DNA from: Nesterenkonia ebinurensis
GTDB taxonomy: Bacteria > Actinomycetota > Actinomycetes > Actinomycetales > Micrococcaceae
Reading direction: 5' to 3'
NCBI RefSeq assembly: GCF_008711175.1
Contig: NZ_VWNF01000048.1
Coordinates: 124,001 to 188,000 of the forward strand
Length of the DNA stretch: 64,000 nucleotides
The translations under genes were made by a program, and so were the position numbers. Positions 213 through 11,130 of the stretch are shown piece after piece. The notes beneath the pieces were generated by a model that did not search any database, was not told the DNA's origin, and saw only the letters and a program-made list of their open reading frames with translations. How positions within the stretch are numbered: position 1 is the first letter of the stretch; the number at the start of each line of letters is the position of its first letter.

Positions 213-3200
213 CTACAGCGTCGGCGACTCTCGTTCCGTGCTACGCCGTGGTGCCTCGTGTGATGTGTCGATGCCTGTGATTCGGTCGGTCTGGTCGAGT
301 GCACGCCGGGCGCGGGCGGCGTCGATCTTCTGCACGGTGGTTTCCGGTGCAGGGCCGAGTGGTGTGTCGTCGGTGATGCCGTACCGGTCTCGGTAAGCGG
401 CGACCGTGCGGGCGTGCCGTCGCCAAGCAGCGGCCTGTCGCTGGTTACGGGGCGGCGTCCCGAGTGGCTTCGTCCAAGCGGCGTTCTCTTGTCGTGCGGT
501 GTCGAGTACCGCATCTGTGCGATCCTCGATGAGCTTGCGGCGCTCTTCCAGCCCTTGGCGCATGTCAGCGCTCATCGGTCCATCCGCATACGGGACGAGT
601 CCGGCGATCAGACGGGGTGTCCTGCGTGTGCGACCGGAACCGGCGGGGCGTGCGGTGGCGCGGGCGACCCGGTGGTGCAGGACCGAGGCGATGTCGTCAG
701 CATCGGCGAATCCGCGGGCGGCGACCAGTCGCGGGAACAAGGTGTCGAGGTCGTGGTGGTTGGCCTCGGCGCGGCGGAGTTCCGCGGTGAGTGCACCGAA
801 CGCCTCAGACTCGATAGTGGAGTCGGCTTGTTTGGCGGTGAGGCCGGAATTGCGGATGAGGGTGGCCCAGCGGTCGTGTTGCGCGGCGGCGGCGATGGTC
901 TCGTACTCGGCGGCAAGTTGGGCGATCGAGCCCCAGTGTTCGTGCTCGGCGGTGATGGTCTCGTGTGCCGATAGCTCGGCGCCAGTGTGCTGGAGGACCC
1001 CGTAGAGCACGGACCTCTCGGTGGCGTCGGGGTTGTCACCGGGATGCGGGAGGGTGCGGTCATCGGGGCGGTCGAGGATCACATAGGCGCGGTTGGCCTC
1101 TCGGCCGCGGGTCATGGCGACATAGAAATTCTCCCTGGTGGTCGTCGGCTCGACCAAGACATGCGCGGTATCGACAGTGACGCCTTGCGCCCTATGCGCG
1201 GTGACCGCGTAGCCGAGGTCGAGGTGCTCGCTTACGTAGGCGGCGGGCAGCACGATCCCGCCACCGAAGCGGCGGCCGTGTCGGCGGATGGTGACCGATC
1301 CATCCTCACGCACGTCAGTAACCGTCCAGCGTTGGCCGTTGCGGACCCAGTCCTTGCCGTAGCGTAGCCGGCGGTCATTGCGCCGGGTGATCACAGTGTC
1401 TCCCACACCGGCCGCGGTGCCGTTGTTCAGGCCAACTTCGCGGCCCGGTGTGATGGTGCCATCGAGGATCAGATCAGCCCTGGCCCGGTCATTTAAATGC
1501 GTGACGTCCTCGCGGGTCTCGGCGATCAGTAGCGAAGACAGCCCGCGGTCGCCGTCGGCCCGCCACGCCGCATAGGCCGTATCGATCATGGATTCGGCCT
1601 CACCACCGGTGATCCGGCCGTGGTCCAGATAAGTGTCGATCACCTCAGTACGCCCGTGCCGCAGGCCCAGGGATGCGGTCTTTTCCCACTCGTTGACGAA
1701 CCGGTGCACGTCCTCCAGTTCGGGGGCGTCGTCGCGGTCGTGGACCAGTAGCCCGAAGCCACCGCCGGCGTCCACGGACTGGAGTTGTCCGTAGTCCCCG
1801 ACCAGTAGCACCTTCGCTCCGGCGTTCTCGGCCAGGTGGGTGATCCGGTCCAGCGACAGTGTGCCGGCCAGGGAGGCTTCGTCGATGATCACCAGCTGCC
1901 CGGCTTGGAACGTGGTGCCGCGGGTGAGGTGGTTCTGCCACCACTTCGCCGTGTTCTCCGTGGCGATACCCAAGTCATCGGCAAGGACCTGGGCGGCCAC
2001 CGCAGATGGAGCGAGACCGACGACGCTGCCGTGGCCGTGTTCGGCCTCCCAGGCCCGCCGCAACGCGGCCATCGCGGTGGTCTTCCCCGCCCCAGCAGGA
2101 CCAACCAGCACATCGAGCATCCGCCCGGAGACCGCGATCTTCATCAGCGCCTCGGCCTGATCCGCACCGAGCAGCCGGCCCTGACGGTCTGGATTCCGGG
2201 TGATCTTCTCCACCGTGGACAGCGGCACGGCCGGTGCGGTGGTGACGTTGGCTCGGGCCAACAGCCGGTCTTCGGCAGCCAGGAGCTGCTCAGAGGAGTA
2301 GACGGTGGCGTGGCGGGGCCGGAACACCGAGGACCCGTTCGGGCGCTGGAACACCACCGGACTGGAAGCCAGTTCAGGCGGAGTCAGACGCAAAGACGCC
2401 TGTTCGGCGGCATCGGCAATCATCCCCACGATCGCCTCCCGGTCCCGTGCGGTGGCGAAGCGCCAGCCCATGGTCTGGCGGGAGGCTTCGGCGTGCAGGT
2501 TCCAGTGCCGCCAGGTCGCCCGCTTCTCACTGACCTCCTCCACCACCGCCTGCCCAAGCTCGGACACCACGTCCAGGGGAATGTCATCAGCCCGCAGCAA
2601 CATCGCCGCCGGATTCTCCGTCACGGCACGTGCCCATCCGGTCGCCTCCTGACCCAGCACCTGTCCGGCACGGTTGTGCCATTCGGCGCTCAAGTCGGCC
2701 AGCGAGTGGACCTGCTTCTCGGGCCGGGTCGCAAGCGTGGCCTGGGCGCGCAGCTTCACGATGGTCTTCGCCGAAGGCCGCCGTCCATGCTCGGCCACGT
2801 AGCCGTCGATGAGCCGGTCGGTCTCGGCCTCGATGTCCTGCGACCGGGTCGAGAACGCGCCTATCAGGTCCTCACTGACGCCGGTGATCTCCCAGGCGGG
2901 GTTGCGGTCACGGCCCCGGTCGCGGGTCTCCCACTCGATCCCGAACGTCTGAGTGAGCCGGTCGGCCAGCACCGCGTTGTAATGCTCCGAGAGCGCCACA
3001 ACCGCGGCGTGCATCGGCCGCCCGTCCAAGGACCGCCATTTACCATCCAACACGGTCTGGACCTTGTTCGACACGACCACATGGGTGTGGAGCTGCGGGT
3101 CAGAGCCTCGGCTGTCGTAGTGATCAAAGGCCGTGGCGATCAGACCGGCCACATCGACCTGAGCCACCGCCCCGTTACCGGCGGTGGTGCCGGTGCGGGT

Positions 3201-3782
3201 CGCGGCGACCTCCCGCTCCATCAGATCAATCACCTCGGCAATCGCCTCATGATGAGCCTGGGCGATCAACGCCTGCGTACCGGCGTCAGCTACACCCCAG
3301 ATTACGGAGACCGACTTGGGCACCGAGAACGTGTAATCGAACCCCGCCACCGGCTTACGGGGGCCGCGACTGGCCTCCTCGGCCTCGATCTGGGCGACCG
3401 CGGCATCCCGCGCTTCGTGGTCCAGCTCTGCTGGCAGGGCATCCATGCGCTCCTGCACACGCTCGGCGGCTGACTTGTACACAGGGAAGGCCCGCCCGAG
3501 TGCTTGTCCGGTGACAGGGTCACGGCCCATCCCGACCAGCAACTGCAACTGCGCCTCCGACACCTGATCACCAACCACGAGTTGCCCGCCGCCAAGTCCG
3601 GTGAGGCCTGATCCCAGCCAGTGGCCCGGAGGTGTTCCCTCCTCCGCGTAGTACCTCGTCAACGGTGTGGACAGGCTGCGGTCACCATCGCCAGCGGCGA
3701 CCGTGCGCATCAGATACCGCACGCCATCGCCGGCACTGAGCACCCGCATCGAAACCGTCACACACGGTAGGTGAGCCAGCAC
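213..3782 (-). CDS. MobF/TrwC-type conjugative relaxase-helicase
   Basis: This large protein (1189 aa from the GTG at 3782) should nick and unwind the element's DNA for conjugative transfer. The N-terminal third is a TrwC relaxase domain. The tyrosine pair is YY at residues 44-45, and the three-histidine metal site is H221 with LHTH at 231-234. A RecD/TraI-like helicase follows, with Walker A VGPAGAGKTT at 560-569, Walker B IIDEAS near 634 and a UvrD-like C-terminal motif TAHRAQGVT. MobF proteins usually begin close to an LSAGDG motif, so the true start may be the ATG at 3749 (MRVLSAGDG) rather than 3782. It is the leftmost backbone gene and is read away from the AraC gene. No accessory nicking protein was recognised beside it. 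Confidence 0.93.
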   Translation of the reverse strand: MLAHLPCVTVSMRVLSAGDGVRYLMRTVAAGDGDRSLSTPLTRYYAEEGTPPGHWLGSGLTGLGGGQLVVGDQVSEAQLQLLVGMGRDPVTGQALGRAFPVYKSAAERVQERMDALPAELDHEARDAAVAQIEAEEASRGPRKPVAGFDYTFSVPKSVSVIWGVADAGTQALIAQAHHEAIAEVIDLMEREVAATRTGTTAGNGAVAQVDVAGLIATAFDHYDSRGSDPQLHTHVVVSNKVQTVLDGKWRSLDGRPMHAAVVALSEHYNAVLADRLTQTFGIEWETRDRGRDRNPAWEITGVSEDLIGAFSTRSQDIEAETDRLIDGYVAEHGRRPSAKTIVKLRAQATLATRPEKQVHSLADLSAEWHNRAGQVLGQEATGWARAVTENPAAMLLRADDIPLDVVSELGQAVVEEVSEKRATWRHWNLHAEASRQTMGWRFATARDREAIVGMIADAAEQASLRLTPPELASSPVVFQRPNGSSVFRPRHATVYSSEQLLAAEDRLLARANVTTAPAVPLSTVEKITRNPDRQGRLLGADQAEALMKIAVSGRMLDVLVGPAGAGKTTAMAALRRAWEAEHGHGSVVGLAPSAVAAQVLADDLGIATENTAKWWQNHLTRGTTFQAGQLVIIDEASLAGTLSLDRITHLAENAGAKVLLVGDYGQLQSVDAGGGFGLLVHDRDDAPELEDVHRFVNEWEKTASLGLRHGRTEVIDTYLDHGRITGGEAESMIDTAYAAWRADGDRGLSSLLIAETREDVTHLNDRARADLILDGTITPGREVGLNNGTAAGVGDTVITRRNDRRLRYGKDWVRNGQRWTVTDVREDGSVTIRRHGRRFGGGIVLPAAYVSEHLDLGYAVTAHRAQGVTVDTAHVLVEPTTTRENFYVAMTRGREANRAYVILDRPDDRTLPHPGDNPDATERSVLYGVLQHTGAELSAHETITAEHEHWGSIAQLAAEYETIAAAAQHDRWATLIRNSGLTAKQADSTIESEAFGALTAELRRAEANHHDLDTLFPRLVAARGFADADDIASVLHHRVARATARPAGSGRTRRTPRLIAGLVPYADGPMSADMRQGLEERRKLIEDRTDAVLDTARQENAAWTKPLGTPPRNQRQAAAWRRHARTVAAYRDRYGITDDTPLGPAPETTVQKIDAARARRALDQTDRITGIDTSHEAPRRSTERESPTL

Positions 3783-10023: not shown

Positions 10024-11130
10024 ATGCACGACTTTGTCTCCCCATCGGATCGCCGTCCTCGGATTGGTTCGCTGTTCTCTGGATACGGCGGCCTCGATCT
10101 GGCCGTGGAATACGTCACCGGCGGCGAGACGATCTGGTTCTCCGAACTCAATAGCCCCGTCGCCCGTGTCTTCGCCCACCACTGGCCCGCCGCTCAGAAC
10201 CTCGGCGATATCACCACCATCGACTGGAACGCCGCTCCGCCGGTGGACATCCTCTGCGGGGGCTTTCCTTGTCAAGACATCTCGACCGTCGGTCGTCAGG
10301 CCGGCCTCACGCCTGGCACCCGCTCGGGTCTCTGGTCGTTTATGGCTGAGGCGATCGAGGCGCTGCAACCCCGGTACGTGGTGATCGAGAACGTGCGCGG
10401 GCTGCTCTCTGCCCGCGCGTCACGTCCCCAGATGCAAGGAGCAACCCCCGATGACCGCAACCCCCATCTCGCAACCACAACCCTTCGCAACCTGGAACCC
10501 GACCGATGGGGTCTGGGAGACCAGCCAACTCGACCTCTTCGGGCACTGGGCGCCGTACTCGGCGATCTGGCCGACCTCGGGCTCCATGCACGATGGATCG
10601 GCCTACCTGCATCACTGGCCGGCGCACCACATCACCGGTTCCGGATCTTCATCCTCGCCCACCGCAGGGACGTTGTTCCGGACGCCGCTGGCCTCGGATT
10701 CCTCCCGCGGCGGGGAGAACCTGGACCAGGTGAAGGCCCGCCGGGGCACGATCGCCCTGTCGCATCAGATCATCGACCTCACCCTGCACGGGCCACCTGG
10801 CTCGCAGATCAGCAACGACGAGTCGGAGACACTGTTCACCCTGATCGAGAACATCTTCGACACTGGGGACGATACGCACACGCCATCACTCGCTGGGAAC
10901 ACATCACCGCACGGAGAGCACCAGCCCCAGCGCTCGTGACAGAAAACGAGGTGCCGCGTCCAGCGCCGGAGTTCGTGGAATGGTTCATGGGCCTGCCGCC
11001 AGGCTGGATCACCAACCCTGAACACGGACTGACACAGAACCAACAGATCACCGCCCTCGGCAACGGTGTTCTCCCACTCCAAGCACTACTGGCCATCAAA
11101 GAAACCGAGACGCGCCCGCAGACACCGTGA
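10024..11130 (+). CDS. DNA (cytosine-5) methyltransferase
   Basis: A 368-aa C5-cytosine DNA methyltransferase using S-adenosylmethionine. Motif I is LFSGYGGLDLA (17-27), the catalytic motif IV GGFPCQDIS has C83, motif VI is IENVRGL (121-127), motif VIII is the variant HHRFR (203-207), and motif X is near ITALGNGVLPLQAL. The C-terminal WGRYAHAITRWEH and FVEWFMGLPPGWIT stretches are typical of phage and ICE methylases. SD GGAG lies at 10014-10017. No restriction enzyme was seen beside it, so it is probably an orphan that protects the element against host restriction, as ArdC (27720) would. Codons 143-305 overlap another ORF in the +1 frame. Confidence 0.92.
   Translation: MHDFVSPSDRRPRIGSLFSGYGGLDLAVEYVTGGETIWFSELNSPVARVFAHHWPAAQNLGDITTIDWNAAPPVDILCGGFPCQDISTVGRQAGLTPGTRSGLWSFMAEAIEALQPRYVVIENVRGLLSARASRPQMQGATPDDRNPHLATTTLRNLEPDRWGLGDQPTRPLRALGAVLGDLADLGLHARWIGLPASLAGAPHHRFRIFILAHRRDVVPDAAGLGFLPRRGEPGPGEGPPGHDRPVASDHRPHPARATWLADQQRRVGDTVHPDREHLRHWGRYAHAITRWEHITARRAPAPALVTENEVPRPAPEFVEWFMGLPPGWITNPEHGLTQNQQITALGNGVLPLQALLAIKETETRPQTP
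10451..10939 (+). CDS. Overprinted 162-aa ORF inside the methyltransferase gene
   Basis: This frame lies wholly inside the methyltransferase gene, shifted by one base. Unlike an ordinary shadow frame it has a strong ribosome site: CAAGGAG at 10435-10441, nine bases before its ATG. The predicted protein is not arginine-rich like most off-frame products and opens ISQPQPFATWNPTDGVWETS, then has aromatic and acidic stretches (QLDLFGHWAPYSAIWP) and ends GEHQPQRS. I do not recognise a fold and know no function. The host frame clearly keeps methyltransferase motif VIII through the overlap, so both frames would have to be under selection at once. Confidence 0.55.
   Translation: MTATPISQPQPFATWNPTDGVWETSQLDLFGHWAPYSAIWPTSGSMHDGSAYLHHWPAHHITGSGSSSSPTAGTLFRTPLASDSSRGGENLDQVKARRGTIALSHQIIDLTLHGPPGSQISNDESETLFTLIENIFDTGDDTHTPSLAGNTSPHGEHQPQRS

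Follow-up and report, generated by a model that had tools for sequence, protein, structure and literature searches.

Does a DNA methyltransferase gene of Nesterenkonia ebinurensis encode a second protein in another frame of the same strand, and what would that protein do? The locus lies in a stretch of 64,000 nucleotides (the window), in which an earlier note had described a 162-codon frame inside a methyltransferase gene, with CAAGGAG nine bases before its ATG and a host frame that keeps its methyltransferase motifs. Each of these observations was borne out. The inner frame, here called beta, lies at offset +1 entirely within the outer gene, alpha (Table 1); CAAGGAG occupies positions 10435-10441 and is followed by nine bases and the ATG; and alpha has both a PF00145 match and motif VIII within the overlap.

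The identity of alpha is clear from the PF00145 profile (E=7.9e-32, 111.4 bits against a cut-off of 22) together with motifs I, IV (PCQ), VI (ENV), VIII and X, which place it among the C5-cytosine DNA methyltransferases. The score with TIGR00675 (99.2 bits) was slightly below the cut-off of 100.65. Alpha also matched phrog_363 and phrog_116, a search of PDB sequences returned M.HhaI, and Foldseek aligned alpha with M.HhaI over about 210 columns. The motif numbers were assigned by eye against what we take to be the standard C5 methyltransferase motifs. Beta gave no Pfam or NCBIfam match at E<=1, and five other betas contained no characterised domain either; against PDB sequences only two chance hits were found (E 0.18 and 0.42), with no match to a solved structure. 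The AF2 models had a mean pLDDT of 49 for beta and 52 for alpha, the latter falling below 50 at residues 217-257 and also elsewhere in a weak model. They are too poor for judging the fold or docking of beta, and the alpha model adds little on the stretch after motif VIII.

Table 1. Features of the alpha/beta locus and its neighbour, in positions of the window.
Feature	Position	Strand	Remarks
MobF/TrwC relaxase	213-3782	-	in relatives, usually next to the alpha/beta module and divergent to it
Alpha, C5-cytosine DNA methyltransferase, 368 aa	10024-11130	+	motifs I-VIII, IX-like, X
AAGGAG, putative ribosome-binding site of beta	10436-10441	+	9 nt 5' of the ATG
Beta, nested frame, 162 aa, ATG to TGA; proposed target-recognition subunit	10451-10939	+	offset +1, wholly within alpha
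Beta N-terminal domain, P11-P70	10481-10660	+	dual-coded with the motif VII/VIII region of alpha; register near-fixed
Alpha motif VIII (GAPHHRFRIFILA)	about 10621-10659	+	inside the beta overlap; alpha HMM
Alpha stretch from motif VIII to WGRYA	10666-10863	+	codon-position rates
Beta TP unit (LFRTPLASD...ALSHQIIDL)	10673-10780	+	codon-position pattern fully inverted
Alpha motif IX-like (RPAPEFVEWFMGLPPGW) and motif X (ALGNGVLPLQA)	10957-11085	+	3' of the end of beta

When the codons of alpha in the window were resampled synonymously, the inner frame stayed open in 55% of the trials; taken alone, the inner ORF is not beyond chance. Beta is judged to be real because it is conserved across relatives and not because of the length of its ORF. 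A scan of species genomes found 179 relatives, of which the best 80 (L033-L112) were retained. These loci were collected by similarity to beta and are therefore a selected set. By their titles they are actinobacterial, with the exception of L085, a MAG contig labelled Planctomycetota. This contig is 99.2-99.6% identical over 6.5 kb to the Brevibacterium/Gulosibacter loci L087 and L088, and is therefore either mobile or mis-binned. Near-identity between records of different genera (99.2-99.99% over 6.5-10.5 kb) was found in L050/L051/L052, L038/L040 and L085/L087/L088, suggesting that the element moved recently or that contigs were misassigned.

Alpha was judged intact in 48 of these 80 loci (41 by motif regexes, which may misjudge individual loci, and seven near-misses by eye). 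The earlier note had named stop codons in the inner frame of close homologues as evidence against it. In 45 of the 48 alpha-intact loci the inner ORF reached 125 aa or more, so that, within a set selected by beta similarity, this test for the most part does not refute the frame; in three (L074, L076 and L110) it was broken, and two of these, L074 and L076, share 99.3% identity over 3.6 kb. A count of stops in the inner frame gave 0 against 48.2 expected, a weak result since an inner ORF of that length had been required for a locus to be kept, and 45/48 is the fairer figure. Alpha was not intact in the other 32 of the best 80 by regexes and inspection, and beta was open in 30 of them (for example L034, L087, L103 and L106). 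Such loci may reflect decay, a role for beta alone, cut contigs or sequencing error.

In the +1 arrangement, the third codon position of alpha is the second of beta, and the first position of alpha is the wobble position of beta. Selection on the two frames was examined through pairwise differences among 37 non-redundant intact loci. Before this, 35 of the best 80 loci were dropped: the 30 with a non-intact alpha and an open beta, and five in which beta was broken or startless (L037, L074, L076, L105 and L110). Removal of near-duplicates then took 51 loci, of which six were the window and loci from other genome searches, to 37. Upstream of beta the rates at alpha positions 1/2/3 were 0.179/0.142/0.390; the overlap gave 0.272/0.139/0.215, and the part downstream of it 0.233/0.201/0.554. 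The ratio of position 3 to position 1 was 2.28 (1.76-2.81) upstream, 0.81 (0.64-1.01) in the overlap and 2.42 (1.86-3.00) downstream. Among disjoint pairs the core was inverted in 18/18, and the normal pattern was seen on either side in 18/18.

The inversion is not uniform along the overlap. The first segment, 10447-10509, is inverted (0.256/0.195/0.162). Across 10510-10629 position 3 is still the most variable (0.241 and 0.273), yet below its upstream level, which we read as constraint on both frames. From 10630 to 10875 the pattern is inverted again, with alpha position 1 more variable than position 3, and segment 10696-10755 reaches 0.516/0.111/0.063; the normal alpha pattern returns at 10876-10935 (0.169/0.103/0.417). 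The alpha stretch from motif VIII to WGRYA varies as expected if the frame of beta, and not that of alpha, were constrained. Two viral groups changed in the same direction, although more weakly, with ratios of 1.79 to 1.46 to 0.94 and of 1.87 to 1.37 to 0.99. The earlier note had suggested comparing synonymous-site change in both frames across homologous methyltransferases, and this comparison supports the inner frame: third-position change is 0.215 in the overlap against 0.390 and 0.554 outside. Its wider claim of two functional frames on one strand is upheld by the homologues, by the inversion of the rates at the codon positions, and by a start that is conserved together with its Shine-Dalgarno site. 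The rates indicate that purifying selection keeps both frames, and the dual coding of alpha and beta can be regarded as established with near certainty.

The N-terminal domain of beta provides a second line of evidence. HMMs of the 60 N-terminal residues of beta and of the motif VII/VIII region of alpha were run on 303 sources, a redundant set consisting of 302 loci, a few of them one place counted twice, and the window. Both matches occurred together in 301 of the 303, always at offset +1, and the start of motif VIII followed the domain at a median distance of 65 nt (5th-95th percentile 62-74). The two exceptions were L020, which has no motif VIII nearby, and L141, in which no N-terminal domain was found. 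Some of this register is unavoidable, since motif VIII, when read at +1, is similar to the latter half of the domain; the synonymous codons of alpha were therefore reshuffled as a control. In 194/194 non-redundant loci the domain scored above all 40 shuffles, with group medians of 85-99 bits against 30-35 for the shuffled sequences. Since the domain HMM had been trained on the loci that it scored, training and test loci were also taken from different groups; the domain was then above the shuffles in 74/74 and in 46/47, with one failure. The nested frame was found in sources down to 42% GC, and in that case, L189, 97% of the reshuffles of the locus hit a stop.

A first count of offsets, made with whole-beta tblastn, had placed 46 of 190 loci at offset 0. 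We take these as best hits to the TP/IX/X part in the frame of alpha, because the N-terminal-domain HMM gives +1 wherever both domains are near each other. Outside the 303-source set, the domain scored only 23 bits, at +1, in Paenibacillus larvae phages and 95 bits in the Microcystis phage Mwe-JY08, and no domain match at E<=1 was listed for the E. coli phage SCS92, though motif VIII was matched. In L014 and L022 the beta domain and methyltransferase motifs share a single open frame, and motif VIII is read in a different one; this copy looks decayed.

The start site of beta is also shared. By a single search rule, AAGGAG was found before a nearby ATG or GTG in 54 of the best 80 of the 179 relatives, and some Shine-Dalgarno-like motif before a nearby start in 70. 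The rule takes the best of several nearby starts, and the same rule was therefore run at five shifted control places, where AAGGAG was found in 0/80 each time and any motif in 3, 0, 3, 0 and 36 of 80. Within the window, AAGGAG-N4-10-ATG is mildly enriched, occurring five times against 1.95 expected, and 6 of 100 shuffles reach five.

Beta is found both in phages and in bacteria. It matched 162 of 50,697 phage records, and among the matches listed the gene beneath beta was named DNA methylase or methyltransferase in 37/40. Two overlapping genes are annotated in Phanphagia, one of eight phage records inspected, and both frames are annotated in the record of the Paenibacillus phage Bloom. The genome of the window has three copies of beta, at its three PF00145 places. 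With this genome counted, matches were found in 10/149 genomes of the order, in 10/120 of the family and, with a more diverse alignment, in 7/396 of the phylum. Among plasmid records, 4 of 72,556 were matched.

What beta might do is suggested by the part that follows its N-terminal domain. Here lie the TP units, short stretches that start like LFRTPLASD or WPTPTARD; in four viral groups a beta carries 0-8 of them by a loose regex. With this regex, units were found in the betas of 192/194 loci (control about 28) and in the alphas of 23/194 (shuffled control 13.1). The count in alpha is only weakly above its control and is not convincing by itself. As the loose regex had been applied to alpha only 3' of motif VIII, the region 5' of this motif was searched too, and stricter patterns were tried. 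The strict TP motif was found in beta in 189/194 loci (8.0 when residues were shuffled), and in alpha after motif VIII in 19/194 (3.7 shuffled) and before it in one (3.3 shuffled), so that the strict count after motif VIII is convincing. A longer TP unit pattern fits only 102/194 betas and seven alphas, and lies 5' of motif IX in 7/7 of these alphas. According to PMC5944983, the target-recognition domains (TRDs) of C5 methyltransferases sit between motifs VIII and IX. In a sample from L143-L222, which are viral loci, units like LLKTPTSQLAVNGGSQHPDKRKAGGHGPTLADEVEHLL recur nearly unchanged across phages at differing positions, as if they were shuffled as cassettes.

The division of motifs IX and X between the two frames also varies. 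In the window, alpha carries the IX-like motif and X and beta carries neither; likewise, alpha has both in 20/30 non-redundant species-genome loci. By regexes, all 74 loci of the viral L026 group, which was fetched with a query that itself carries IX, have X without IX in alpha and IX without X in beta, and beta is nested in 72/74. In the viral L008 group beta has both motifs in 14/59 and alpha has both in 19/59. The position of the TP units and this varying partition are the reasons for calling beta a recognition subunit, a role which we infer from position.

Two-polypeptide C5 methyltransferases offer a model for such a role. In M.EcoHK31I (YGGCCR) the beta gene is nested within the alpha gene in a different frame, and the window shares both the two polypeptides and the second frame inside the alpha gene. 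M.AquI and M.EcoHK31I are both C5 methyltransferases made up of two chains (PMC3404938). According to the same paper, the large polypeptide of M.EcoHK31I carries motifs I-VIII and X, whereas in M.AquI the large subunit carries I-VIII and the small one the distal variable region and IX-X. The window differs from M.EcoHK31I in that its beta is without motif IX and its alpha has both motifs, while the arrangement with IX on the small and X on the large polypeptide is that of the viral L026 group (74/74). The likeness of the window to M.EcoHK31I is one of organization. The split of M.AquI (CYCGRG) is like that of some phage relatives (the 14/59 of the L008 group) and unlike that of the window, where IX and X are in alpha and beta is wholly nested. 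The phrog_1008 model, named 'DNA methyltransferase', matches residues 8-91 of beta (E 7.7e-9) and residues 277-359 of alpha (E 4.7e-25). It looks like an AquI-like beta, with the N-terminal domain and IX-X; these parts share one chain in the model and are split between frames in the window.

A limited literature search, covering few subscription papers, found no description of a conserved overlap of this kind. The nearest paper, PMC11855218, concerns endonuclease insertions: the ShiLan domain, or hidden HNH endonuclease, is likewise an out-of-frame protein within phage DNA methylase genes. However, the ShiLan type is an insertion with a disjunct distribution, whereas beta overlies the native motif VIII. 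Beta as a hidden homing-endonuclease insertion was rejected, as it contains no Pfam family and the frame is present in 301/303 sources. In the methylase of the Gordonia phage Lennon (L004, 1675-3384), a LAGLIDADG-like frame is hidden at +1 upstream of beta, annotated as an HNH or a LAGLIDADG endonuclease depending on the record; the methylase there therefore bears out-of-frame proteins at two places.

Taken together, we consider it probable that alpha and beta form a two-polypeptide methyltransferase in which beta is the recognition subunit, acting in trans and working like M.EcoHK31I. Alpha would supply the motifs for catalysis and SAM binding (I-VIII, IX-like and X). Beta, with its N-terminal domain and one TP unit, would be translated in the +1 frame from its own ribosome site inside alpha, presumably from the same transcript. 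It may then dock on alpha and provide a target-recognition surface that the alpha chain would lack, and the complex would methylate a fixed sequence.

For M.EcoHK31I, however, PMC3404938 assigns the predicted TRD to the large subunit. This counts against a recognition role for beta and favours beta as a subunit for assembly or stability, with the N-terminal domain acting, for example, as a clamp and recognition left to alpha. Since alpha of the window family varies after motif VIII as if only the frame of beta were constrained, such a role is improbable. The 32 non-intact alphas among the best 80, 30 of them with an open beta, also count against the recognition role, as decay may be common among the copies or beta may be used independently of alpha. 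The same 30/32 loci, the lack of a characterised domain and the neighbouring relaxase would suit a separate regulator, inhibitor or anti-restriction protein, and the earlier note had thought of beta as a protein that regulates or inhibits the enzyme or acts against restriction. That suggestion found no support: the same frame bears enzyme parts, IX or IX+X, in EcoHK31I-like and AquI-like relatives, and strict TP motifs also occur in the chain of alpha itself after motif VIII (19/194). The motifs in the beta frame of relatives and the place of the TP units in alphas therefore point to an enzyme subunit, and a separate protein is as improbable as the assembly role. Very unlikely is a programmed +1 frameshift that enters the TP unit once motif VIII has been read, and in the window returns for IX-X, giving one canonical chain. 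In AquI-like relatives a single +1 shift does yield I-VIII, TP, IX and X in order, but it fails to explain the +1 conservation of the N-terminal domain, which precedes any shift by which motif VIII would be retained; it leaves the Shine-Dalgarno site and start of beta unexplained, and the window would need two shifts. A chance ORF or a shadow of conserved GC-rich methyltransferase sequence, which the open frame in the window alone and the part of the domain that motif VIII dictates (shuffled mean about 30 bits) would allow, is ruled out for practical purposes by the codon-position inversion and the reshuffles (194/194), and is at odds with AAGGAG in 54/80 relatives against none at control places and with the frame's presence down to 42% GC.

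A relaxase homologue was found in 69 of the best 80 of the 179 loci, always divergent to the module, and lay 250-330 nt from the approximate start of alpha in 42 of 68 measurable loci, while in the others the two overlapped or were up to 3.8 kb apart. The window has a block of 6.2 kb between them, whose genes include a two-component system, a MerR regulator and, by eye, apparent ABC transporter genes. Methylation by the complex would perhaps protect a conjugative element from host restriction. No restriction endonuclease was found among the seven neighbouring ORFs scanned, and such protection is therefore a guess.

To our knowledge, long overlaps on one strand with demonstrable selection on both frames are uncommon in bacteria, and that of alpha and beta is found in phages and bacteria at 194 non-redundant loci. 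On the assignment favoured here, the window system works like M.EcoHK31I yet does not share its placing of motif IX on the small polypeptide. Tentatively, these loci might represent a large and largely undescribed class of mobile-element C5 methyltransferases, in which a specificity subunit was overprinted on the catalytic gene through one ancestral +1 overlap on motif VIII, the register being frozen since. The TP units would then be exchangeable recognition cassettes, motifs IX and X would move between the frames, and the window would be the extreme form, with beta a pure recognition subunit. The methyltransferase is placed beside a MobF relaxase in the 69 of the best 80 actinobacterial-type loci. 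If beta is the recognition subunit, specificity might change by the swapping of one short unit, and the overlap would be a natural test case of two proteins evolving on one sequence.
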